64,000 bases of DNA from Candidatus Thioglobus autotrophicus (GTDB taxonomy: Bacteria; Pseudomonadota; Gammaproteobacteria; PS1; Pseudothioglobaceae), in NCBI GenBank assembly GCA_022448455.1, contig JAKUUR010000001.1:1-64000 (forward strand). Direction: 5' to 3'. Of the stretch, positions 4,572-25,244 are shown piece after piece; position 1 is the stretch's first letter, and each line of letters starts with the position of its first letter. The translations under genes and the position numbers were made by a program. Below the pieces are notes generated by a model. The model was given only the letters and a program-made list of their open reading frames with translations, searched no databases and had not been told where the DNA came from.

Positions 4572-5075
4572 ATGGTATATGTTTTTTTTGGTGTATCTTG
4601 CTCTGGAAAAACCACTATAGGAAAAAAAATATCTATTAAATTAGATGTTCCATTCTATGATGCCGATGACTTTCATTCTGAAGCAAACATTGAAAAAATG
4701 AGTCAAGGGATTCCTCTTGACGATTTTGACCGACTAGCTTGGCTTCAAAAAATTTCCAAAAAAATAGATGAATGTAATGAAAAAGGAAATGCCATTTTTG
4801 CATGTTCAGTATTAAAGGAAGAGTATAGGGAAATATTATCTGATTCATTTCAGAAAAAAGTTATATTTATTTTTTTAGATATTAGTAGGACTGAAGCTGT
4901 AAAAAGATTAAAAATGAGAGCGAACCATTTCTTTCCAATAGAATTACTAGATAACCAGTTTGAAATACTTGAGAGCCCATCTAATGCAATTAAAGTTAAT
5001 GCTAGCAATGATATAGATCTAGTATGTGATGAAATATATATTCAGATAATGGTTGAACCTACTTTAGGAAATTAA
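4572..5075 (+). CDS. Gluconokinase-like (GntK family) kinase
   Basis: GVSCSGKTTIG P-loop, YDADDFHSEANIEKMSQGIPLDDFDRLAWL, CSVLKEEYR, ANHFFPIELLDNQFEILESP. Confidence 0.8.
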   Translation: MVYVFFGVSCSGKTTIGKKISIKLDVPFYDADDFHSEANIEKMSQGIPLDDFDRLAWLQKISKKIDECNEKGNAIFACSVLKEEYREILSDSFQKKVIFIFLDISRTEAVKRLKMRANHFFPIELLDNQFEILESPSNAIKVNASNDIDLVCDEIYIQIMVEPTLGN

Positions 5076-6553
5076 GATTGAGACATCATTGCCTTAATTT
5101 CATTTACGATGATTTCAATACCCTTGTTTATCTTATTTGTATCAATTGCAGAATAACCAAGATGTAAATAGTTTTTTGGTGAGTCTTGACTAAAGAAAGA
5201 CGCATCTCCAGGCCTTAAAACTACGCCTTTTTTGAGCAATTCTTGACAAAGTTTTGCACTATTAATAGATTCTGGTATTTTAATCCAGAATGTTGATCCT
5301 CCGACCGTCGGTGCACATGACAACAAAGGTTCTTCTTTAATTTTTTCATTAATTAAATTCCATCGCTCTTTATTGGTTCTCTGTATTTTGGTAAACATAT
5401 TGTGGTAATGGCCCAGTCCAATAAACAATGCAACTGAGCGTTGATTGTTTGCAGGTATATGTCTCAACATCAAACGTCTTAAGGCCCTTGCTTCTTTGAT
5501 AAAGCTTTCTGCTGCAACCATATAGCCTAGACGAAGGCCGGGCGCAAAAGCTTTTGAAAAACTACCACAATAAATAACATTATTATGATCATCTAAACTT
5601 TTTAAAGAAGGATGGGGTTTTTCTTGAAAATTAATCTCGGCCTCATAGTCATCCTCTATGATGACTATGTTATTTTGTTGTGCACTTTCTAACAACTGTT
5701 TTCTTCGCTCCATACTCATTGTCACGCCGGTAGGGTACTGGTGACTCGGTGTGGTGTAGATCATATCGATATGAGGTTTGATCTCATCAACCATGATGCC
5801 TTCATGGTCTACAGAAATTGGAATAATATTATCGGTTCTAAAGCTATAAATATTCCTAACATCTGGATATCCAGGGTTTTCGATACCAACAACTGTTTTT
5901 TCCTTAACCAGAAGGCTTGCCAGGATATAAATGGCATTCTGACTACCAGAAGTTATTAAAATTTGATTTTTATTGGCCCAAATTCCACGCTTTGGCAGTA
6001 CTTTGGATTGAATTTGTTGAATTAGAGATGGATCGTCACTGTCCACATGGTCAATATTCCACTTTTTAATCTCTGGAACGGTTGAGGATTGCCTTACCAC
6101 CTCTCGCCATTCATAAAAAGGAATTAGGCTATTGTCAAGCTGACCTACAGTAAAAGAATAAGGCAATTTTTGCCAATCTTCTGATTTTTGAATATTGGTT
6201 TTAAATGACGGTTTTTTTGTAATTAATTGGTCAAGCCATTGTGGTGATTTCTGAGTTACTGATGAAACTTCTTTAGTATCAGAATAATTTTCATAAATTT
6301 TATCGTTTACAAAATAACCCTTCCTCGGTTGAGCAGTAATATAGCCGTCAAACTCTAACTCTTTATATGCAGCTATAACAGTGTTTCTAGCAACTTTTAG
6401 GGATTTCGCCAGGTTCCTCGAAGAGGGCAGAGATTCATTCGGTCCTATTAAGCCATTTGTAATAGCATCTACTAATTGTTGACGAATTTGAAGTTGCAGA
6501 GTTCTTGGTTTATCAAGCCTTAAAGAAAAAAACTGATTCCACATTTCGTTCAT
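5072..6553 (-). CDS. tauR: MocR-type (GntR HTH + aminotransferase fold) regulator, likely taurine regulator TauR
   Basis: N-terminal wHTH (GLIGPNESLPSSRNLAKSLKVARNTVIAAYKELEFDGYI) plus PLP aminotransferase domain (YCGSFSKAFAPGLRLGYMVA). Divergent from tpa. Confidence 0.82.
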   Translation of the reverse strand: MNEMWNQFFSLRLDKPRTLQLQIRQQLVDAITNGLIGPNESLPSSRNLAKSLKVARNTVIAAYKELEFDGYITAQPRKGYFVNDKIYENYSDTKEVSSVTQKSPQWLDQLITKKPSFKTNIQKSEDWQKLPYSFTVGQLDNSLIPFYEWREVVRQSSTVPEIKKWNIDHVDSDDPSLIQQIQSKVLPKRGIWANKNQILITSGSQNAIYILASLLVKEKTVVGIENPGYPDVRNIYSFRTDNIIPISVDHEGIMVDEIKPHIDMIYTTPSHQYPTGVTMSMERRKQLLESAQQNNIVIIEDDYEAEINFQEKPHPSLKSLDDHNNVIYCGSFSKAFAPGLRLGYMVAAESFIKEARALRRLMLRHIPANNQRSVALFIGLGHYHNMFTKIQRTNKERWNLINEKIKEEPLLSCAPTVGGSTFWIKIPESINSAKLCQELLKKGVVLRPGDASFFSQDSPKNYLHLGYSAIDTNKINKGIEIIVNEIKAMMSQS

Positions 6554-6557
6554 AAGT

Positions 6558-6592
6558 CTGGTCTATTAATTGCAAGTTTGCTGGATCTATAC
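6558..6592 (+). promoter_or_regulatory. Candidate TauR operator: two direct CTGG(T/A)-type repeats
   Basis: CTGGTCTATTAA at 6558 and CTGGATCTATA at 6581 in the tauR/tpa intergenic region. Resembles the CTGGACTTAA-like direct repeats recalled for Rhodobacter TauR. Confidence 0.5.
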
Positions 6593-6669
6593 ATATCTTT
6601 ATTCTATACCTCTTATATTTTACAATTCAATACTCTGAATTGCAGTAAATTTAATATCAAGGATTTATT

Positions 6670-8028
6670 ATGTCTGAAAGCACAATTATACAAAATGATA
6701 AGAAACATGTTTGGCATCATTTAACGCAGCATAAAGCTTTTGAATCGAGTGACCCTCTTGTGGTTTCAGAAGGGAAAGGGATGTATGTCACTGATATCAA
6801 AGGTGATGAATATCTAGACGCAACTTCTGGCGGAGTATGGACAGTCAACCTTGGCTATGGAAGGGATGAAATGGTAGATACTATCAGTAATCAGTTGTCA
6901 AAAATTCCTTACTTTGCAGGTTCTATTGGTAATGAGCCAGCTGCACAATATGCAAAAGAGTTAACCTCAATTATGCCTGGTTTAGATCGTGTTTACTATT
7001 CGAATTCAGGTTCTGAGGCTAATGAAAAGGGCTACAAAATGGTACGACAAATTGCCCATTTTCATAATGAAGGAAAAAAACACAAAATTATATATCGTGA
7101 CCGGGATTATCATGGAACAACCATTGGAGCAATGAGCTCTTCTGGTCAAATTCAAAGAACAAAGCAATATGGACCATTTGCGCCTGGTTTTGTTGAAATG
7201 CCAAATTGCTGTTGTTATCGCTGCCCGTTTGGTAAAAAATATGGTGAATGCAATATTGAGTGTGCTCATGCTCTTGAAGATGTCATTCAAAAAGAGGGTG
7301 CAGATAATATCGGTTCTGTAGTTTTAGAGTCAATAACTGCAGGTGGTGGAGTTATTACCCCTGTGCCAGAATATTTCCCAATCATTGAATCAATCTGTAG
7401 AAAGTATGATGTGTTGCTTCATATTGACGAAGTGGTTTGCGGTCTTGGAAGGACAGGAAAATGGTTTGGTTATCAAAATTATGATGTGCAACCCGATATT
7501 GTTACTATAGCCAAAGGTCTGGCAGCCGGTTATGCAGCGATATCAGTAACAGTTACTACTGATAAAGTTTTTGAAGCGTTTAAAGAGGATCCAAGTAATC
7601 CTGACAGCTATTTCAGAGATATATCTACATTTGGAGGATGCACGGCTGGTCCAGCAGCTGCTTTGGAAACTTTAAATATTATTAAAAGAGATAAGCTTCT
7701 TGACAATGTTAATACTGTTGGTGATTATTTAAAAAGTAAGTTGCATGAACTTGAAGAAAAACATCAAATAATTGGTGAAGTTCGTGGAAAGGGTTTGTTT
7801 TGTGGCGTAGAGCTTGTCAAAGATAGACAAACTAGAGAGCCAGTAGATGAAACAGTTGCAATGTCAATCGTTGGTCATTGCTTAAAAAATAAAGTAATGA
7901 TTGGTAGAATTAATAGATGTTTTGAACATAACAATAATGTATTACTATTTAGTCCCGCTTTTATATGTACTAAGGATGAAGTTGATCTTATTGTTGAAGC
8001 GGTTGACAATGCCCTTGAAGTTAATTAA
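6670..8028 (+). CDS. tpa: Taurine--pyruvate aminotransferase (class III)
   Basis: Class III aminotransferase motifs (YYSNSGSEANEKGYKM, LLHIDEVVCGLGRTGKWFGYQ, TIAKGLAAGY), followed directly by ald and xsc. Confidence 0.9.
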   Translation: MSESTIIQNDKKHVWHHLTQHKAFESSDPLVVSEGKGMYVTDIKGDEYLDATSGGVWTVNLGYGRDEMVDTISNQLSKIPYFAGSIGNEPAAQYAKELTSIMPGLDRVYYSNSGSEANEKGYKMVRQIAHFHNEGKKHKIIYRDRDYHGTTIGAMSSSGQIQRTKQYGPFAPGFVEMPNCCCYRCPFGKKYGECNIECAHALEDVIQKEGADNIGSVVLESITAGGGVITPVPEYFPIIESICRKYDVLLHIDEVVCGLGRTGKWFGYQNYDVQPDIVTIAKGLAAGYAAISVTVTTDKVFEAFKEDPSNPDSYFRDISTFGGCTAGPAAALETLNIIKRDKLLDNVNTVGDYLKSKLHELEEKHQIIGEVRGKGLFCGVELVKDRQTREPVDETVAMSIVGHCLKNKVMIGRINRCFEHNNNVLLFSPAFICTKDEVDLIVEAVDNALEVN

Positions 8029-8058
8029 TAGTTAATATATATAAACAGGATATTTGAT

Positions 8059-9177
8059 ATGATTATTGGAGTACCAAAAGAAATTAAAAACCATGAATAC
8101 AGAGTTGGCTTAACACCAAGAAGTGTTAGGGAATGTGTTAGAAACGGCCACAAAGTGATGGTCCAAAATAATGCTGGTAGCGGAATCGGTGCAAGTGATG
8201 ATGATTACATTGATAATGGTGCCGAAATTATAGCGACTGCTGAAGAGATTTTTGCAACTGCAGAAATGATCGTCAAGGTTAAAGAACCTCAAGCAAATGA
8301 ACGCGCTATGCTGAGAGAGGGTCAAATACTTTATACCTATCTTCATCTCGCTCCAGACCCTGAGCAGACAAAAGATTTAGTTAAGAGTGGTGCTACATGC
8401 ATTGCTTACGAGACGGTAACGTCTCCTCGAGGCGGTTTACCATTATTAGCTCCAATGTCAAAAGTTGCTGGGAGAATGGCTATTCAGGCAGGTGCACACT
8501 TTTTAGAACACCCTAATGGCGGCATGGGAGCCTTGCTTGGTGGTGTACCTGGTGTTAACCCACTAAAAGTTGTTATTTTAGGGGGAGGTGTTGTAGGTGC
8601 CCATGCCGCTCATATGGCAGTAGGAATGGGGGCTGATGTTTGGGTGCTTGACAATAATCCTGACGCATTAGAGAAACATTGGCAACAATTTGGTCGCAGT
8701 ACGAATACCGTTTTTTCAACTCAAAGTACAGTTGAAGAATATGTACTAAAAGCTGATTTAGTCATTGGAGGAGTTTTAATACCCGGTGCTGAAGCGCCAA
8801 AACTAGTTACAAAAGAGATGATTAAGGCAATGAAGCCTGGTTCAGTTGTTGTTGATGTTGCAATAGACCAGGGTGGCTGCTTTGAGACTTCTAAAGCAAC
8901 AACGCATGCAGATCCAACATATGTGGTGGATGATGTTGTTCATTATTGTGTAGCCAATATGCCTGGTGGTGTTCCCAAAACATCAACATTTGCGCTTAAT
9001 AATGTAACTCTCCCATTCGCAATTGACATTGCCAATAAAGGGGTTAAACAAGCATTACTTGACGATGAACACCTTAGAGCCGGTTTAAATGTTCATAAAG
9101 GCAAGGTAACATGTCTTGAAGTAGCCGAAGATTTGGGTTATGAATACGTTTCAGCGCTTGAAGCGCTACAAAATTAA
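8059..9177 (+). CDS. ald: Alanine dehydrogenase
   Basis: [20 protein letters not shown] start, [42 protein letters not shown]. Confidence 0.95.
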
Positions 9178-9197
9178 TATTAATAGGAGAAGTAAGA

Positions 9198-10970
9198 ATG
9201 GCGAAAATGACTGCAAGTGAAGCCTTTGTTGAAACAATGGTTGTAAATGGTGTTAAGGATATCTTTGGCATTATGGGTTCAGCATTCATGGATGCTATGG
9301 ATATTTTTGAACCTGCAGGCATAAGATTAATTCCAGTGGTTCATGAGCAAGGTGCTGCCCATATGGCTGATGGCTATTCCAGAGTGAGCGGAAAGCATGG
9401 TGTTTGTATTGGTCAAAATGGCCCAGGTATCTCAAACTGTGTGACTGCAATTGCTGCAGCTTATTGGGCTCATAGTCCAGTGGTAATTGTTACGCCAGAG
9501 GCCGGTACTGGCGGTATTGGTTTAGGTGGATTCCAAGAAACCAATCAGCTGCCAATGTTTCAAGAATTTACTAAATATCAAGGTCATGTCGTCAATCCAA
9601 TGAGAATGGCTGAATTTACTGGCCGTTGCTTTGATAGAGCAATGAGCGAAATGGCGCCTACTCAACTCAACATACCGAGGGATTATTTTTATGCTGAGGG
9701 CGAATTTACAATCCCTCAACCTCGAAGAATTGATCGAGGTACGGGTGGCGAAGAAACTTTAAATGAGGCTGTAGCTATAATCGCTAAAGCACAATTTCCT
9801 GTAGTTGTTTCTGGTGGTGGTGTAGTGATGGCCGATGGCGTTCAAGAATGTATAGCATTAGCTGAGCGTTTAGGAGCTCCAGTTGTGAATAGTTATCTCC
9901 ATAACGACTCTTTTCCTGCAAGTCATGACCTTTGGTGTGGACCATTAGGATATCAAGGCTCGAAAGCAGGCATGAAACTGATATCACAGGCAGACGTTGT
10001 CATTGCCCTAGGAACTCGCTTAGGACCGTTTGGAACGTTACCTCAGCATGGAATGGATTATTGGCCAAAAGACGCTAAAATCATCCAAATAGATGCAGAC
10101 CATAAGATGCTTGGACTGGTTAAGTCAATTACTGTAGGTATTTGTGGTGATGCTAAAGCTGTCGCAGAAGCGCTTTGCGAAAAATTAGTTTCTGCAAAAC
10201 TTTCCTGCGATTCTACGAAAGAAGAAAGGGCTAAAAAGATTGCCGATGAAAAAGCGGTTTGGGAACTAGAGCTGGATGAGTGGATTCATGAAACTGACTC
10301 ATATAGCATGGACATGATCGCCAATAAGGAGGAGGGTTGTCTTCACCCTAGACAAGTTTTACGTGAACTAGAAAAAGCAATGCCTGAGGACGTCATGGTG
10401 TCAACAGATATTGGTAATATTAATTCTGTTGCAAATAGTTACCTTCGTTTTGAGAAGCCTCGTAGCTTCTTTGCAGCAATGAGCTGGGGTAATTGTGGAT
10501 ACGCCTTCCCAACAATAATCGGAGCAAAAGCTGCAGCACAACATAGACCCGCTGTCTCTTATGCGGGTGACGGCGCCTGGGCGATGAGTATGGTTGAGAC
10601 GATGACATGTGTTCGCCATGATATCCCTGTCACAGCAGTTGTCTTCCATAACCGCGATTGGGGTGCAGAAAAGAAGAACCAAGTAGACTTCTATGACAGA
10701 CGCTTCGTTGCTGCTGAACTTACAGATCAACACTTTGTGAATATTGCAAAGTCAATGGGCGCTGAAGGCATTCGTGTTGATAAACTTGAGGATGTAGGTC
10801 CGGCACTGAAAAAAGCCGTAGACATGCAAATGAATGAAAGAAAGACAACAATTATTGAAATCATGTGTACTCGTGAACTCGGTGATCCGTTCAGAAAGGA
10901 TGCATTGAGTAAGCCAGTCCGTCATTTGGCTAAATATAAAAACTACAGTAGCGATACAAAACATCGTTAA
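9198..10970 (+). CDS. xsc: Sulfoacetaldehyde acetyltransferase (ThDP-dependent)
   Basis: TPP-enzyme fold with MASEAFVET-like N-terminus, GIMGSAFMDAMDIFEPAGIRLIPVVHEQGAAHMADGYSRV, NRDWGAEKKNQVDFYDRRFV, and tpa-ald-xsc context. Confidence 0.92.
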   Translation: MAKMTASEAFVETMVVNGVKDIFGIMGSAFMDAMDIFEPAGIRLIPVVHEQGAAHMADGYSRVSGKHGVCIGQNGPGISNCVTAIAAAYWAHSPVVIVTPEAGTGGIGLGGFQETNQLPMFQEFTKYQGHVVNPMRMAEFTGRCFDRAMSEMAPTQLNIPRDYFYAEGEFTIPQPRRIDRGTGGEETLNEAVAIIAKAQFPVVVSGGGVVMADGVQECIALAERLGAPVVNSYLHNDSFPASHDLWCGPLGYQGSKAGMKLISQADVVIALGTRLGPFGTLPQHGMDYWPKDAKIIQIDADHKMLGLVKSITVGICGDAKAVAEALCEKLVSAKLSCDSTKEERAKKIADEKAVWELELDEWIHETDSYSMDMIANKEEGCLHPRQVLRELEKAMPEDVMVSTDIGNINSVANSYLRFEKPRSFFAAMSWGNCGYAFPTIIGAKAAAQHRPAVSYAGDGAWAMSMVETMTCVRHDIPVTAVVFHNRDWGAEKKNQVDFYDRRFVAAELTDQHFVNIAKSMGAEGIRVDKLEDVGPALKKAVDMQMNERKTTIIEIMCTRELGDPFRKDALSKPVRHLAKYKNYSSDTKHR

Positions 10971-11034
10971 ACTTTAACTATTTGTATTGTTGGGCAGCTT
11001 TTCCTGTCCTGATAAACAAATCTCATCAATAACT

Positions 11035-11571
11035 ATGAATCATTCTGATGTTATTAAATATTGGTTTTCTGAAAAAAGTAGACAACATTGGTTTTCCTCG
11101 ACCTCTGAAATGGACTTTGAAATAAAGCAACGTTATGAGAAGCTCTGGACAAGCGCTGCATCTGGAGAACTTAACGATTGGCAAGATTCTCCTCAAGGTT
11201 GTTTGGCGTTGGTTATTGTCTTAGACCAGTTTCCTTTGAATATGTTTAGAGGTAAATCTAAAAGCTTTCAAACCGAGGAGATGGCTGTTGAAGTGGCTTT
11301 AAAAGCAATTAATAACGGCTATGATGAAATTTTGAATACTGAAGAATTGCTTTTTCTCTTTATGCCTTTAATGCACAGTGAAAATCTTGAACATCAAGAC
11401 ATACAGGTTAAATTTTTTGAGAAATATGATTTCAATGATGAATATTCCAAGCATCATAGGAATATCGTAAAGAGGTTTGGTCGTTTCCCACATAGGAATG
11501 ATATATTGGGTAGAAAAAGTACTCCAGATGAAGTTGAATACTTACTTTCTGACAGCGCATTTAAAGGCTGA
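11035..11571 (+). CDS. DUF924 family protein
   Basis: VIKYWFSEKSRQHWFS, LALVIVLDQFPLNMFRGK, YDEILNTEELLFLFMPLMHSE. Start moved from the TTG at 10987 to the ATG at 11035. Confidence 0.75.
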   Translation: MNHSDVIKYWFSEKSRQHWFSSTSEMDFEIKQRYEKLWTSAASGELNDWQDSPQGCLALVIVLDQFPLNMFRGKSKSFQTEEMAVEVALKAINNGYDEILNTEELLFLFMPLMHSENLEHQDIQVKFFEKYDFNDEYSKHHRNIVKRFGRFPHRNDILGRKSTPDEVEYLLSDSAFKG

Positions 11572-17383: not shown

Positions 17384-17489
17384 ATTTTTTTGCCCCTTTG
17401 TAATTATTATTTGTTTTTTAATCCTGGCAGTTTTTAGACAGGTTGCTAGTCTAGCATCAATGTTGTCTTTTTGCATTGATTAGATTTGT

Positions 17490-17513
17490 TTGTTGTTTTC
17501 ATGATACCAACAA
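17490..17513. promoter_or_regulatory. 24-bp inverted repeat in the aceA/IclR divergent intergenic region
   Basis: TTGTTG-N3-TCATGA-N3-CAACAA, symmetric about 17501.5. Confidence 0.45.
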
Positions 17514-17555
17514 TAAATTTTAAATATTCAATAATTTCACTATATAATATTTATT

Positions 17556-17570
17556 TTTCATAATATGAAA
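17556..17570. promoter_or_regulatory. 15-bp palindrome TTTCATA-A-TATGAAA immediately upstream of the IclR-family gene
   Basis: Perfect 7+1+7 palindrome ending 5 bp before the ATG at 17576. Confidence 0.45.
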
Positions 17571-17575
17571 TAATT

Positions 17576-18265
17576 ATGATTTTAAGATCTCTAGACAAAA
17601 AATACAATGCCATTGAAAAATGCCTTCAAATCCTGTCTATATTTTCACTTGATAAAACACAATTTAGCATCAATGAAATTTGTGAAAAATTGGATTTTAA
17701 TATATCTACTACCTATCGCATCTTGAGCACACTTGAGGAATATGGATACGTTTCAAGATTAAAAAATAAAGATTATGTAGTTGGAACACAGGCTCTTTAT
17801 TTAAGTGCTATTTACACTCAAAGTAATCACTTAGAACAAATTCGTCCTATTGTTGATGCAATAAGAGATATATCCGGTGAAACTGCTTCATTCTTTGTAG
17901 AAGAGGATAGCATGCGAATTTGCCTATATAGGGCTCATTCGCGTGATGAAATTCGTCACAATATTGAACAGGGTAGCCGTTTGGAATTGAATCGTGGGGC
18001 TTCTGGAAGAATTATTCTTGCTTATGGCAAAAGAAAGAATGACAAAGCTGGATTTTATAAGGAAATTAGAGATGATGGATATTACCTCTCAATTCATGAG
18101 CATAACCCATCTTTATTCGCTATAGCTATTCCAGTTATTTCAAAAAGCAATATATTTGTTGGTGCTATAGTTGCCTCAGGTCCAATTAGTAGATTTAATG
18201 AAAATAAAAAGAGGTTATTGTTAAATATCTTGAGATCTAACTTAACAAAAATTGTCATGCCGTAA
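17576..18265 (+). CDS. IclR-family transcriptional regulator
   Basis: N-terminal wHTH (FSINEICEKLDFNISTTYRILSTLEEYGYVSR), C-terminal IclR effector domain (LNRGASGRIILAYG, FAIAIPVISKSNIFVGAIVASGP). Divergent from aceA. Confidence 0.85.
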   Translation: MILRSLDKKYNAIEKCLQILSIFSLDKTQFSINEICEKLDFNISTTYRILSTLEEYGYVSRLKNKDYVVGTQALYLSAIYTQSNHLEQIRPIVDAIRDISGETASFFVEEDSMRICLYRAHSRDEIRHNIEQGSRLELNRGASGRIILAYGKRKNDKAGFYKEIRDDGYYLSIHEHNPSLFAIAIPVISKSNIFVGAIVASGPISRFNENKKRLLLNILRSNLTKIVMP

Positions 18266-18331
18266 TAATTCTTTATTTCAAGGTAAATAGTATTTTTACT
18301 TAATTGCAGAGATCATTAAAACTAGCAATAG

Positions 18332-18350
18332 TCATATATATGAGTATACT
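18332..18350. promoter_or_regulatory. Candidate operator upstream of GntR-Pta: TCATATATATGA overlapping AGTATACT
   Basis: Two adjacent perfect palindromes (18332-18343 and 18343-18350). GTATAC fits the general GT-N-AC style core of GntR sites. Confidence 0.3.
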
Positions 18351-18407
18351 GTGAAATTTTAGCGTTGTATTTATATCAAATTAGTTAGTTTTAGTCGAGA
18401 AATGTGA

Positions 18408-19625
18408 ATGAATAAAAAACTTTACCAAACAGTAATTGAGTATATCAATAAGGAAATAAAAAGCGGTAATCTTACTAATGGAGATGCAATTCCTTCTGAA
18501 TCTCAACTATCCAAATTGCTAGATGTTAGTGTTGGTACCATCAGAAAAGCAGTTGACAAATTGGAAAACAACAACACCTTGTACCGCCAACACGGTAAAG
18601 GCACATTCGTTTCCGATTATGGATTCGACAATAGATTACTAAACAAACTAACCAAAAAAGTTCAAAAAAAGTTTCCTCGCATATTACTACCTGAATCAAG
18701 CGATGAAAGAGTTCTACAGGCCGCTATAAATATCTCTAGAAAAAAAATTGCACAAATTGTCCTTCTCGGTGATGAAGCTAAGATCTCTCAACAGATAGCC
18801 AGATTAAATCAAGGCTTGGATAGTGAGTTTAAATATTTAGATACGAAGGATATTCAATTAAAAAATATTTATGCCGAAATCTTTTATAGAAAAAGGAAGC
18901 ATAAAGGGATGTCGTTGGATGAAGCGAAAAAGCTGTTAGAAGACGATACAGTTTTTGCTATGTTAGCTTTAGAAAATGATGATGCGGACGGAGTTGTAAC
19001 TGGAGCCATAACGCCTAGCCAGACAGTTCTTAGTAATGCCCTAAGGATAATTGGGGTTGCTGATAACAGCAAGCTTGTTTCTAGCTTCTTTCTAATGATT
19101 TTTGATGCAAAACATCAAAGCTATGGTAGTGAAATGATATTTTCTGATTGCGCGATGAATGTTGATCCTGATTCTGATGAATTGGCAGAAATAGCAAAAA
19201 GTGCATACAAATCAGCTAAAAGCTATCTTGATATCGAACCGAAAATCGCTATGCTTTCTTTTTCAACTAATAAAAATACAAAACATACTCAGGTAGAAAA
19301 AGTAAGTGTTGCGACTAGCACTTTAAGAAAGAAGCTTCCCGAGGCTGACATTATTGGCAATATTCAGCTTGATGCTGCTTTAGATAGTATTGTTCTTAAA
19401 ACAAAGTCTCCAGAAGCAAATTTTACACCTCCAGCTAATGTCCTTATCTTCCCAAACTTAGATGCTGCGAATATTGGCTATAAGCTTGTTCAACGATTTT
19501 CAGGCGCTAAAGCCATAGGGCCAATTCTTCAAGGGATGGCCAAGCCAGTAAACGATCTATCAAGAGGTTGCAGTGTTGATGAGATATTTAATACAGTAGT
19601 CATTACTGCAAACCAGTGTAAGTAA
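18408..19625 (+). CDS. pta: Fusion protein: N-terminal GntR-type wHTH plus phosphate acetyltransferase (PTA_PTB) domain
   Basis: aa 1-75 GntR wHTH (GDAIPSESQLSKLLDVSVGTIRKAVDKLENNNTLYRQHGKGTFVS). aa ~90-405 Pta (RILLPESSDERVLQAA, DGVVTGAITPSQTVLSNALRIIG, SDCAMNVDPDSDELAEIA, FPNLDAANIGYKLVQR, GPILQGMAKPVNDLSRGCSVDEI). Confidence 0.88.
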   Translation: MNKKLYQTVIEYINKEIKSGNLTNGDAIPSESQLSKLLDVSVGTIRKAVDKLENNNTLYRQHGKGTFVSDYGFDNRLLNKLTKKVQKKFPRILLPESSDERVLQAAINISRKKIAQIVLLGDEAKISQQIARLNQGLDSEFKYLDTKDIQLKNIYAEIFYRKRKHKGMSLDEAKKLLEDDTVFAMLALENDDADGVVTGAITPSQTVLSNALRIIGVADNSKLVSSFFLMIFDAKHQSYGSEMIFSDCAMNVDPDSDELAEIAKSAYKSAKSYLDIEPKIAMLSFSTNKNTKHTQVEKVSVATSTLRKKLPEADIIGNIQLDAALDSIVLKTKSPEANFTPPANVLIFPNLDAANIGYKLVQRFSGAKAIGPILQGMAKPVNDLSRGCSVDEIFNTVVITANQCK

Positions 19626-19626
19626 A

Positions 19627-21246
19627 CTACATACTGATGTAATTTGGACCGCCACCCCCTTCTGGAGGCGTCCAAGTAATATTTTGTGCTGGGTCTTTAA
19701 TGTCACAAGTCTTACAATGAAGACAATTTTGAGCATTTATTTGGAAATAATCCGACCCTTCTTTTTCAATGATTTCATAGACTCCGGCAGGGCAGTATCT
19801 CTGTGCCGGTTCGTCATATTTTTGAAGATTATAATCCAGCGGAATTTTAGCATCAGCTAGTTTTAAATGAACTGGCTGGTCCTCCTCGTGGTTCGTGCCA
19901 GAAAGAAACAAGGAAGAACTAATGTCAAAACTTAAAACATCATCTGGTGCAGGGTAGGATTTTATTTTAGAATCTTTGGAAGGCTTTAAAGAGTCACAAT
20001 CTCGCTCATCATCCTTGATATCAATTGGTAATTTATTACGAAAAATATTGGACTCAATGAAGTTGTAAATTGAGCCTCCATAAAAACCAAACTTATGAAG
20101 TGCGCTACTAAAGTTTCTTGCTTTATGAAGCTCCTTGTAAAGGCCGCTAGACTTAAACATATCGTCAAAATCGCAGACCTCTTCGGTAAGTACTTTATTT
20201 ACATATTCTGCAGCAAGGATTCCAGACTGTAATGCGCAATGACTGCCCTTGATTTTTCCGGGATTCAATGTGCCTGCGTCGCAACCAATAATCATTCCGC
20301 CATCAAAGTCCATTTTAACGAGTGAGTGAAGACCTCCTTTGGTGATAGCTCTTGCACCATAAGAAACTCGTTTGCCGGACTCCAAGAATTCTTTAATCTT
20401 AGGGTGTTTTTTATATTGTTGAAACTCTTGAAAAGGGCTATGGTGAGGATTGTTGTAGTTCAAGTCCACAATCAGTCCAACCGCTATTCGGTTATCGCTA
20501 AAATGATATAAAAATCCTCCACCTGATGTACCCTTATTAAGTGGCCAACCAATTGTATGAAGGACATCGCCTAAGCTATGCTTATCTGTATCAACCTCCC
20601 AAATTTCTTTAAAGCCAATTGCGAAGTGTTGTGGTGTTTTACTTTCATCTAGATTGAATTCTTTAATCAGCTGTTTACCTAAGTGACCCCTTGAACCTTC
20701 TGCAAATATAGTTTGTTTTGCATAAATATCCATACCCGGCGTCCAGTTACCTTTTTGATTTCCCTGCTTATCAAGACCCATATCGCCTGTTGCGATTCCA
20801 CAAACTCTGCCGCTTTTATCAAGTAAATAATTCTGAGCAGGAAACCCTGGAAAAATATCGACACCGAGTTCGATAGCTCTTTCTCCAATCCATTGACAGA
20901 GTTCACCTAGAGAAATTAAATAATTACCATTGTTGTGTAATCCTTTAGGTGTAAGCCAAGAGGGCACTTTGATACTTTTGTTGCTGCCGGTTAGGAGATA
21001 AACATCATCTCTTTTAACAGGAGTATTAAGAGTGGGGCAACTACTTGCCTCTTCAGGAAAAAGGTCAAATAATGTTTCAGGTTCAAAAACAGCTCCTGAA
21101 ATAATGTGAGAGCCTATTTCAGAGCCTTTTTCTAATAGACAAACGGAAAGATTTTGATTAAGTTGTTTTAGTTTGCATGCTGATGCCAGGCCTGATGGTC
21201 CTCCACCAACAACTACAACATCATATTCAATTGACTCTCTTTCCAT
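19627..21246 (-). CDS. Electron transfer flavoprotein-ubiquinone oxidoreductase
   Basis: VVVVGGGPSGLASACKLKQL, SHIISGAVFEP, C-terminal 4Fe-4S NAQNCLHCKTCDIKDPAQNITWTPPEGGGGPNY. Confidence 0.95.
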   Translation of the reverse strand: MERESIEYDVVVVGGGPSGLASACKLKQLNQNLSVCLLEKGSEIGSHIISGAVFEPETLFDLFPEEASSCPTLNTPVKRDDVYLLTGSNKSIKVPSWLTPKGLHNNGNYLISLGELCQWIGERAIELGVDIFPGFPAQNYLLDKSGRVCGIATGDMGLDKQGNQKGNWTPGMDIYAKQTIFAEGSRGHLGKQLIKEFNLDESKTPQHFAIGFKEIWEVDTDKHSLGDVLHTIGWPLNKGTSGGGFLYHFSDNRIAVGLIVDLNYNNPHHSPFQEFQQYKKHPKIKEFLESGKRVSYGARAITKGGLHSLVKMDFDGGMIIGCDAGTLNPGKIKGSHCALQSGILAAEYVNKVLTEEVCDFDDMFKSSGLYKELHKARNFSSALHKFGFYGGSIYNFIESNIFRNKLPIDIKDDERDCDSLKPSKDSKIKSYPAPDDVLSFDISSSLFLSGTNHEEDQPVHLKLADAKIPLDYNLQKYDEPAQRYCPAGVYEIIEKEGSDYFQINAQNCLHCKTCDIKDPAQNITWTPPEGGGGPNYISM

Positions 21247-23082: not shown

Positions 23083-24582
23083 CTAACTCAATGGAAATCT
23101 TAATTTCACCTCAGCTCCCACCTGCAATAATCGGCTTTTTAGAGTAATTTCTCCTCCGTGAAGTTGCATAATCTTCCTTACGAATCTAAGGCCTAGGCCA
23201 GTACCTCTGGATCCTGAATCTGGCCTTGCAACTGAGAAGAAGCGAGTAAACAGTTTGCTTGAAACGTGAGGCGGTATGCCCGGCCCTTCATCGAGTACAA
23301 CGATTGTTACATATGTATTGGACTCAGAAGATTTGATAGTAATGGTGCCAGCCTTAGGACTAAATTCTAGTGCATTTTTTAAGATATTCCCTAAAGCTTG
23401 TTCTAGGAGTATTTTTTCAGCAAAAACTGTGCTTTTCTTTTCTATATCGTCAAGATTTATAGTGATATTTTTACTGACAATTAAACGATTATGAGTAGGC
23501 ATTTTTAAGACATTTTTTATTGTGAACAAGATTTTGAGTGTGTCTGCGTTGGTTAGTTTTTCACGTCTTTCAATTCTGGAAAGATCCAGTAACCTTGTAA
23601 CAAGGAGATCCATTTTCTTATTTTCTTTAAGAATGGTTTTAATCCATTGTTTTCTAACTTTAGCTTCTTCAGTTAATTCTTTATGTTTTTGATCATCTTT
23701 CTCTTCTAGAAGATAATTCTCAATACCCATCGGTATTAACAGATTTTCTGCAGTTAGCCGAATCCCAGTAATGGGAGTTCTTAATTCATGTGCAAGTGTT
23801 TCAATATATTCTTCAACGTCATCCTTAAGTTCAACATCACTTCGAGCATTCTCTAGGGCCATAGCAAGTTTATTAAACTGAACGTTTAAATTAGGAATCG
23901 ATACATCTTCACCCTTGAAAAGCTTTGTAGCATATTTTTCCAGGCGACGAATGTTTCTTGAAATTCTGTAGCTACCTAAGGCACCAAAAAATAAAGAGAG
24001 GAGAAATATATAGAAGATGAACCTATATAAACGGGCTTTATTCATTAGGTCTAACATCGGAGCTACTACGACAAGAACTCCTTGAACTTGTTGTCTGTTG
24101 TCATAAATAGGGCTTGAGACATGTAAGAATTCAGGTTTATAAAAATATTCAATATTTACTCCTCTTGCTTTCCAAGGGCCACGAACAGTTTCGGCAGAAA
24201 TTCTACTTATCCCACGCTGACCTGACAATGCTGAGTCGACCTCTAAATGAGCTCTCATGTCTGTTCCTAGGCTTAAACCACGAGAGTCCAAGATAAGAAT
24301 ACCATCCTTATCAGTAATGTAAATCGCTAGATTCTGTAATCTTTCATCACCATGTGGTGACTGGAAGTAGTCAACAATAACACCTTCAAAAGTAGTAAGA
24401 TCAATTTCAGCGTCTTTGATATTTTGCGAGGCAATTTTGCTAAACATAATTGCTACCTCAACCATGACCTCTTTCGCAGATTCTATACTTGTGCGATGAG
24501 CAAAAAGCCAAACCAGAGTGCTACTGATTACAAAGTAAAGAATAAATAGTTTGGTGCCAATATTTAATTTGAAGTATTTCAT
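23083..24582 (-). CDS. creC: CreC-like sensor histidine kinase
   Basis: H-box LAHELRTPITGIR, ATPase EQALGNILKNALEFSPKAGTITI, GTGLGLRFVRKIMQLHGG. Sensor region ITDKDGILILDSRG...VSSPIYDNRQQVQGVLVV is CreC-like. Confidence 0.78.
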   Translation of the reverse strand: MKYFKLNIGTKLFILYFVISSTLVWLFAHRTSIESAKEVMVEVAIMFSKIASQNIKDAEIDLTTFEGVIVDYFQSPHGDERLQNLAIYITDKDGILILDSRGLSLGTDMRAHLEVDSALSGQRGISRISAETVRGPWKARGVNIEYFYKPEFLHVSSPIYDNRQQVQGVLVVVAPMLDLMNKARLYRFIFYIFLLSLFFGALGSYRISRNIRRLEKYATKLFKGEDVSIPNLNVQFNKLAMALENARSDVELKDDVEEYIETLAHELRTPITGIRLTAENLLIPMGIENYLLEEKDDQKHKELTEEAKVRKQWIKTILKENKKMDLLVTRLLDLSRIERREKLTNADTLKILFTIKNVLKMPTHNRLIVSKNITINLDDIEKKSTVFAEKILLEQALGNILKNALEFSPKAGTITIKSSESNTYVTIVVLDEGPGIPPHVSSKLFTRFFSVARPDSGSRGTGLGLRFVRKIMQLHGGEITLKSRLLQVGAEVKLRFPLS

Positions 24583-25244
24583 TCAATAAGACTGTAGCCG
24601 ATACCTCTGTGCGTTTCTATGTAATCGTTCATTTCATCAATTTCGTGTAAACGTTTACGTATAGACTTGATGTGCGTATTGATTGTCTTTTCATCTGAGC
24701 CGTGGGGTCTATCCCATATAATATTCATCAAATATTCCCTTGTATGAACTTGATTAGGGTGCTTTATTAGGTGAGACAGAATTTTGAATTCAGCCGGTGT
24801 TAAGGTCAGCTCTTGATTATGAAACAATACTCTTTGCATGGCTTGATTAATGCTAAATTTTGATTTAGGGTTTTTATCAGCACGATCACGTCTTAGTTGT
24901 GAACGCACATGAGCAACAACTAATCTGGGACTAAAGGGTTTGGTTATGTATCCATTGGCACCTAGCCCCTCTAAACCAAGAACTTGGTCAGACTCATCAT
25001 CCCTGGCAGAAATAATGATGACAGGTAAATTTGATTTGATGCGAACTTTTCGCAGGACATCAAAGCCACTCATATCAGGTAAGCCTACGTCAAGGAGCAT
25101 AAGGTCTACTTCATTGTTCTCTATATAGTCTAGAGTATCACGACCGTTATCAAACCACTGGCAGCTAAAAGAATCCTGTTCAAGAATGAAGGCTATACTT
25201 TCAGCAATCGTTCTATCGTCTTCAACTATCAGAATATGTTGCAT
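24579..25244 (-). CDS. creB: CreB-like OmpR-family response regulator
   Basis: Receiver domain (VEDDRTIAESIAFILEQ, LMLLDVGLPDMSGFDVL, TKPF) plus winged-helix C-terminus. Overlaps the creC-like gene. Confidence 0.8.
   Translation of the reverse strand: MQHILIVEDDRTIAESIAFILEQDSFSCQWFDNGRDTLDYIENNEVDLMLLDVGLPDMSGFDVLRKVRIKSNLPVIIISARDDESDQVLGLEGLGANGYITKPFSPRLVVAHVRSQLRRDRADKNPKSKFSINQAMQRVLFHNQELTLTPAEFKILSHLIKHPNQVHTREYLMNIIWDRPHGSDEKTINTHIKSIRKRLHEIDEMNDYIETHRGIGYSLIE

Follow-up and report, generated by a model that had tools for sequence, protein, structure and literature searches.

A putative trigger enzyme joining a GntR winged helix to phosphate acetyltransferase in a Thioglobus-like bacterium

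PutA, BirA and NadR are trigger enzymes with a DNA-binding domain, and regulators of the GntR family bind palindromes as dimers. The phosphate acetyltransferase (Pta) of P. gingivalis is a dimer (PMC6461089), and the Pta domain of MaeB has been proven to sense acetyl-CoA and to drive the partner fused to it (PMC7902834). In the literature searched we found no characterised Pta-type trigger enzyme with a DNA-binding domain and no published GntR-Pta fusion; nor does it name a regulator linking organosulfonate carbon to dissimilatory sulfur oxidation in SUP05/Thioglobus.

Here we describe a gntR-pta fusion in the window (the whole stretch of DNA analysed, 64,000 nucleotides) of an uncultured marine sulfur-oxidising bacterium, in which sulfite is the other product of the same (Xsc) pathway as acetyl phosphate. 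The fusion, its origin, the selection on it, the conservation of a putative operator and the co-occurrence of this operator with the winged helix are all read from sequence. They catch what appears to be the birth of a trigger enzyme, since living relatives still show its ancestor, both of the enzymes that were joined to it, the operator that was conserved and a second target. They also predict that in marine SUP05/Thioglobus bacteria a specific regulatory link ties dissimilatory sulfur oxidation to organosulfonate carbon.

The fusion protein and its Pta domain

The gene is one intact open reading frame with an ATG start and no internal stops (Table 1). Pfam places GntR (PF00392) at aa 5–68 with 58.3 bits (cut-off 27) and PTA_PTB (PF01515) at aa 78–401 with 344.9 bits (cut-off 24), and the pta equivalog of NCBIfam (TIGR00651) is matched with 339 bits against a cut-off of 311. 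The original prediction had read a GntR-Pta fusion in one uninterrupted frame and expected exactly these two Pfam families; both points are confirmed. The AlphaFold2 model (mean pLDDT 88) comprises a GntR-type winged helix (helices 3–18, 31–38 and 42–54, two strands), a short linker, weaker than the rest near aa 71–80, and a Pta fold. Foldseek confirms the latter, as the best PDB matches of the model are Pta enzymes; the closest solved structures are the Ptas of P. gingivalis, B. subtilis and M. thermophila for the C-terminal part and the HutC-type YvoA for the N-terminal part. The PF00392 score and the predicted winged helix make the protein a member of the GntR family. Pfam detects neither the UTRA domain of the HutC/UTRA subfamily, nor the C-terminal aminotransferase fold of MocR regulators (Pta stands there instead), nor the N-terminal malic enzyme of MaeB hybrids. 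Where stand-alone Pta reads MALLEKL the fusion has RLLNKL, and the next Met comes only at aa 168; Pta can therefore be produced solely as part of the fusion.

Table 1. Features of the window discussed in the text
Feature	Position	Strand	Remarks
MocR-type GntR-aminotransferase regulator	5072..6553	-	divergent from the taurine cluster/aminotransferase gene; its likely regulator
Taurine cluster (class III aminotransferase, alanine dehydrogenase type, xsc)	6670..10970	+	should supply acetyl phosphate and sulfite
IclR-type regulator gene	17576..18265	+	adjoins fusion, divergent from aceA; left recombination breakpoint in its 3' part
Approximate segment most likely from homologous recombination	18060..19460		iclR 3' end, operator, fusion to about aa 345; inside, L027 allele; flanks, close relatives
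Putative operator AGTCATATATATGAGT	18330..18345		1 mismatch to ACTCATATATATGAGT; fusion's own promoter
TATACT, possible -10 element	18345..18350	+	overlaps operator edge; in most relatives' gntR promoters, not L118, L120, L125
gntR-pta fusion gene	18408..19625	+	405 aa
GntR winged helix and inherited linker, aa 1-76	18408..18635	+	source: GntR-UTRA sulfoacetate-operon regulator
Complete Pta domain, aa 77-405	18636..19622	+	native Pta Met lost
ETF-ubiquinone oxidoreductase (ETF-QO)	19627..21246	-	syntenic right neighbour of pta in relatives

It had been noted that no other pta is visible in the taurine cluster. This is true even across the whole assembly of this Thioglobus-like genome (G000; 1.7 Mb, 95% complete), in which the fusion is the sole PTA_PTB gene; no acetate kinase was found in it either. 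Going by its named close relative L028, the host is a gammaproteobacterium of the Thioglobus/SUP05 type. Aligned with the Pta of M. thermophila (Methanosarcina), whose residue numbering is used here, the fusion keeps R87, R287, C312 and the site-1 residues Y282, K283, N306, D307, S309 and R310, whose role is described in PMC6461089 and PMC9706017, and departs from it by S at R133 and E at D316. D316 is the proposed catalytic base (PMC9706017), and in the P. gingivalis enzyme D318A, at the equivalent position, is strongly affected while R133-type mutants are affected just moderately (PMC6461089). Given both substitutions, Pta activity of the fusion is not certain, and the domain might be a pseudoenzyme that only senses, catalysis having been lost as in MaeB. 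Against this, E at 316 and either S or G at 133 are found in every free Thioglobus Pta examined, among them stand-alone enzymes encoded in sau operons or beside xsc, and the fusion thus does not degrade the enzyme beyond the free Ptas. The change of D to E is moreover conservative, the effect of R133-type mutations is moderate, and the genome offers no other PTA_PTB or acetate kinase, all of which makes a pure sensor very improbable. The Pta domain of the fusion is probably catalytically active. We also noticed that in Ptas of Thioglobus relatives (e.g. L107:4058-5050) GAITPSQ or a similar sequence replaces the usual motif.

Origin, selection and exchange between lineages

In relatives Pta is free (about 320–349 aa) and winged helices 61–78% identical to that of the fusion reside in separate genes. 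The closest relatives (G021, G027 and G008), whose ETF-QO is 93–94% identical to that of the window, have the locus order aceA (−), iclR (+), gntR-UTRA (−), tctA-tctB-tctC, a SauS-SauT fusion and pta (+), ETF-QO (−), SauS being assigned by NF047625 (710 versus 600 bits). By its gene content this syntenic locus is a sulfoacetate operon (tctABC-sauST-pta) with a divergent GntR-UTRA regulator. The 973-aa SauS-SauT protein within the tct-sau-pta operon (L107:5140-8061 and orthologues) unites SauS, an acylating dehydrogenase for sulfoacetaldehyde, with a SauT-like ligase of the AMP-forming type. At the window locus the UTRA domain and the tct-sau genes are gone, and in alignment with the relatives the regulator's winged helix and linker (HGKGTFVSDYGFDN) join Pta at its second residue, nearly all columns invariant among intact GntR-UTRA relatives being retained. 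On this alignment and synteny, the fused winged helix is the DNA-binding half of the sulfoacetate-operon regulator and did not originate for taurine. Since gntR has the opposite orientation in the closest relatives, the rearrangement must have included an inversion.

Among 84 family genomes the fusion is present only in G000 and on L027, a contig of 3.9 kb in the G073 bin. The latter represents a second species and comes from an independent assembly (ETNP2_MAG_37), and its protein is 87% identical across aa 1–393, up to the contig end. No further GntR-Pta fusions were found in 369 class-level or 399 phylum-level genomes (overlapping sets), and none on plasmids among the matches listed; open frames of 390–519 aa in G376, G178, G628, G613 and G638 were discarded because no GntR domain was seen in them by eye. 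The L027 contig (also L126, JASLYC010000046.1) is binned with another genus, and its iclR and aceA match those of G017 at 97%, so it looks misbinned, and the apparent presence in G073 of a free Pta alongside the fusion is discounted.

Comparison of the two GntR-Pta genes gives a dN/dS of 0.114 for the winged helix and 0.115 for Pta (dS 0.55), by which both domains are under purifying selection. For the iclR beside both fusions dS is 1.66, and aceA is saturated. These values bear on the reading that the winged helix is a passive relic, a harmless N-terminal extension of a protein that is purely an enzyme. Such a relic would fit the rarity of the fusion and DNA binding that is only putative, but equal constraint on the two domains, the largely invariant columns of the winged helix and the retention of an operator in its own promoter together with a perfect distant copy (see below) render it improbable.

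Sliding identity reveals a mosaic. Until about 18060 the window is about 93% identical to G027/G021/G008, from there to about 19460 it matches the L027 allele at 83–97% in most sliding windows, and beyond it is again like the relatives (88–95%). The fusion and its promoter were therefore most likely passed between lineages by homologous recombination. At the same place G017, to which L027 is so close in iclR and aceA, has gntR-UTRA and tct-sau, yet L027 has the fusion, which would thus be an alternative allele in the G017 lineage. An assembly chimera, suggested by the position of the fusion within a mosaic segment, was rejected: the independent assembly of L027 has the fusion in frame and with its promoter, and neither breakpoint disturbs frame or synteny.

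Pta is not the only partner. In six genomes of the genus (G012, G020, G016, G014, G004 and G003) the same winged helix is fused to class II aldolase (PF00392 + PF00596), and the operator or a variant, mostly ACACATATATATGAGT, lies upstream; the loci are L111:6022-6969, L112:4855-5802, L113:3851-4798, L114:2751-3698, L115:4673-5620 and L201. In G006 and G025 class II aldolase and gntR-UTRA are adjacent but unfused genes. sauST is missing from each of the seven enzyme-fusion genomes that were tested. In the aldolase tree the fused rows do not group together, so the aldolase may have been fused more than once, or recombination may have occurred, and we limit the claim to this: as read from the domain architectures, the winged helix acquired two different enzyme partners, Pta and class II aldolase, within one genus.

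A palindromic operator and its predicted targets

The 16-bp palindrome ACTCATATATATGAGT, or a one-base variant of it, is found upstream of gntR-UTRA, tctA, gntR-aldolase and gntR-pta. It does not contain GT-N4-AC, the usual operator core of HutC regulators (PMC4494728). At no more than one mismatch G000 holds it in two places, against 0.03 (first-order Markov) to 0.08 (composition) copies expected: before the fusion and, as a perfect copy (C34:80610), 55 bp before sat, which is followed by a QmoC-like membrane gene (aprM position) and aprB. Directly downstream of the sat palindrome lies TTGAAG-17-TATACT, although chance alone would give an equal number of promoter-like matches. Before the fusion, a sigma-70 consensus scan of 18266–18420 found no promoter. 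Two more one-mismatch copies are present in G021 (L179:221-236 and L180:1540-1555). Several genomes, the winged-helix-less G028 among them, also have in common a second element upstream of sat, about ATATATTAATTCATGTATAC (L187, L189, L194, L145, L148).

The sat-upstream palindrome occurs in 20 of 29 same-genus genomes, about 31–107 bp before sat. Across the family the palindrome is found in all 20 genomes with the winged helix versus 6 of the 64 without it (Fisher P-value 2e-14, relatedness uncorrected), and in one of these six, G011, a contig end cuts the regulator position. No sat palindrome was seen at eight checked sat genes of winged-helix-less genomes from other genera, nor in G028; G010 and G073 have the winged helix and no sat palindrome. 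Some other transcription factor, governing both sat and the sau/pta locus, might instead recognise the palindrome, a reading to which G026, with a sat palindrome and no detected winged helix, and the putative nature of the binding lend something. Yet the palindrome tracks the winged helix across the family and stands in promoters of all three kinds of genes that encode it, and we regard another factor as the least probable of the readings considered.

The trigger-enzyme idea of the original prediction is plausible and fits purifying selection on both domains and the conserved putative operator; its proposed targets, the taurine and/or glyoxylate-shunt genes, did not hold up. The palindrome is absent from 6554–6669 and 17384–17575 and has no copy near taurine or glyoxylate genes, so these targets are unsupported and were rejected, and the taurine cluster likely has its own regulator in the MocR-type protein. 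From the operator two targets are predicted, namely the promoter of the fusion itself and the sat-aprM-aprB operon (sulfite oxidation). Elsewhere in the window, a DUF924 protein (10987–11571) lies directly downstream of xsc, and a histidine kinase and response regulator pair (23083–25244) lies beyond the ETF genes, its kinase being poorly conserved (52–63% in relatives at greater distance) next to ETF subunits that are highly conserved.

Proposed mechanism and comparison with known systems

In our opinion the best explanation, which we hold with somewhat better than even confidence, is a bifunctional Pta/regulator that ties removal of acetyl phosphate to sulfite oxidation. The Pta domain would convert Xsc-derived acetyl phosphate to acetyl-CoA and would at the same time substitute for the lost UTRA as dimerisation module of the winged helix, for which it is the obvious replacement given that GntR regulators bind as dimers and that Pta is dimeric in P. 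gingivalis. It probably also takes over the role of UTRA as sensor, and the relay of acetyl-CoA occupancy by the Pta fold of MaeB supports this as possible. The winged helix would still bind the ancestral operator at its own promoter, where the overlap with a possible -10 element suggests autorepression, and upstream of sat-aprM-aprB, where the operator abuts a possible -35 box and either sign of regulation may result. Occupancy of Pta by acetyl-P, CoA or acetyl-CoA would modulate DNA binding, so that sulfite oxidation would follow C2-sulfonate flux, its expression being linked to the flux handled by the enzyme that disposes of the second Xsc product. In this account we infer that the protein is catalytic and binds DNA, and likewise the sign of regulation and these effectors.

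The main rival is a ligand-blind autorepressor: an active Pta that pairs the winged helices as a dimerisation scaffold only, with concentration-dependent repression making the enzyme level self-limited and the fusion setting sat-apr. Loss of UTRA accompanies loss of the sulfoacetate pathway, and regulation by a ligand may just have disappeared along with it; also, the same winged helix was joined to the unrelated class II aldolase family. Both the Pta and the class II aldolase families form homo-oligomers. Pta domains do, on the other hand, relay the binding of acetyl-CoA to the partners they are fused with (PMC7902834), and we consider the scaffold unlikely, though a serious contender. Preferring the ligand-modulated Pta/regulator, we advance its fullest form only tentatively, as falling short of even chances: an active Pta would read its own substrate or product and exert direct control over the sulfite-oxidation operon, so that what becomes of one Xsc product would be coupled to what becomes of the other. 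It would have arisen by exchange of a regulator's ligand-binding domain for a neighbouring enzyme, and within one genus such an exchange would have occurred two or more times (Pta, class II aldolase).

Among known systems, the MocR subfamily of GntR (TauR, PdxR, GabR; PMC5320631) likewise combines a winged helix with a metabolic-enzyme fold as sensor, and some of its members control taurine genes; its domain is aminotransferase-like and the subfamily large and broadly distributed, whereas the fusion described here has Pta and is known from two assemblies. From the HutC/UTRA subfamily it has its winged helix, by descent from a GntR-UTRA regulator, with linker and operator kept and UTRA absent. 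As a Pta (TIGR00651) it has a full-length domain above cut-off with most site-1 residues kept, and differs by its obligate N-terminal winged helix; D316E and R133S are common to Thioglobus relatives. In MaeB hybrid malic enzymes a Pta domain is also fused to another function, but in them the Pta fold serves an enzyme as a sensor without catalysing anything itself (PMC7902834), while here Pta is probably catalytic and sits on a DNA-binding domain. PutA, BirA and NadR, finally, likewise unite enzyme and DNA-binding domain in one polypeptide, with other types of both.
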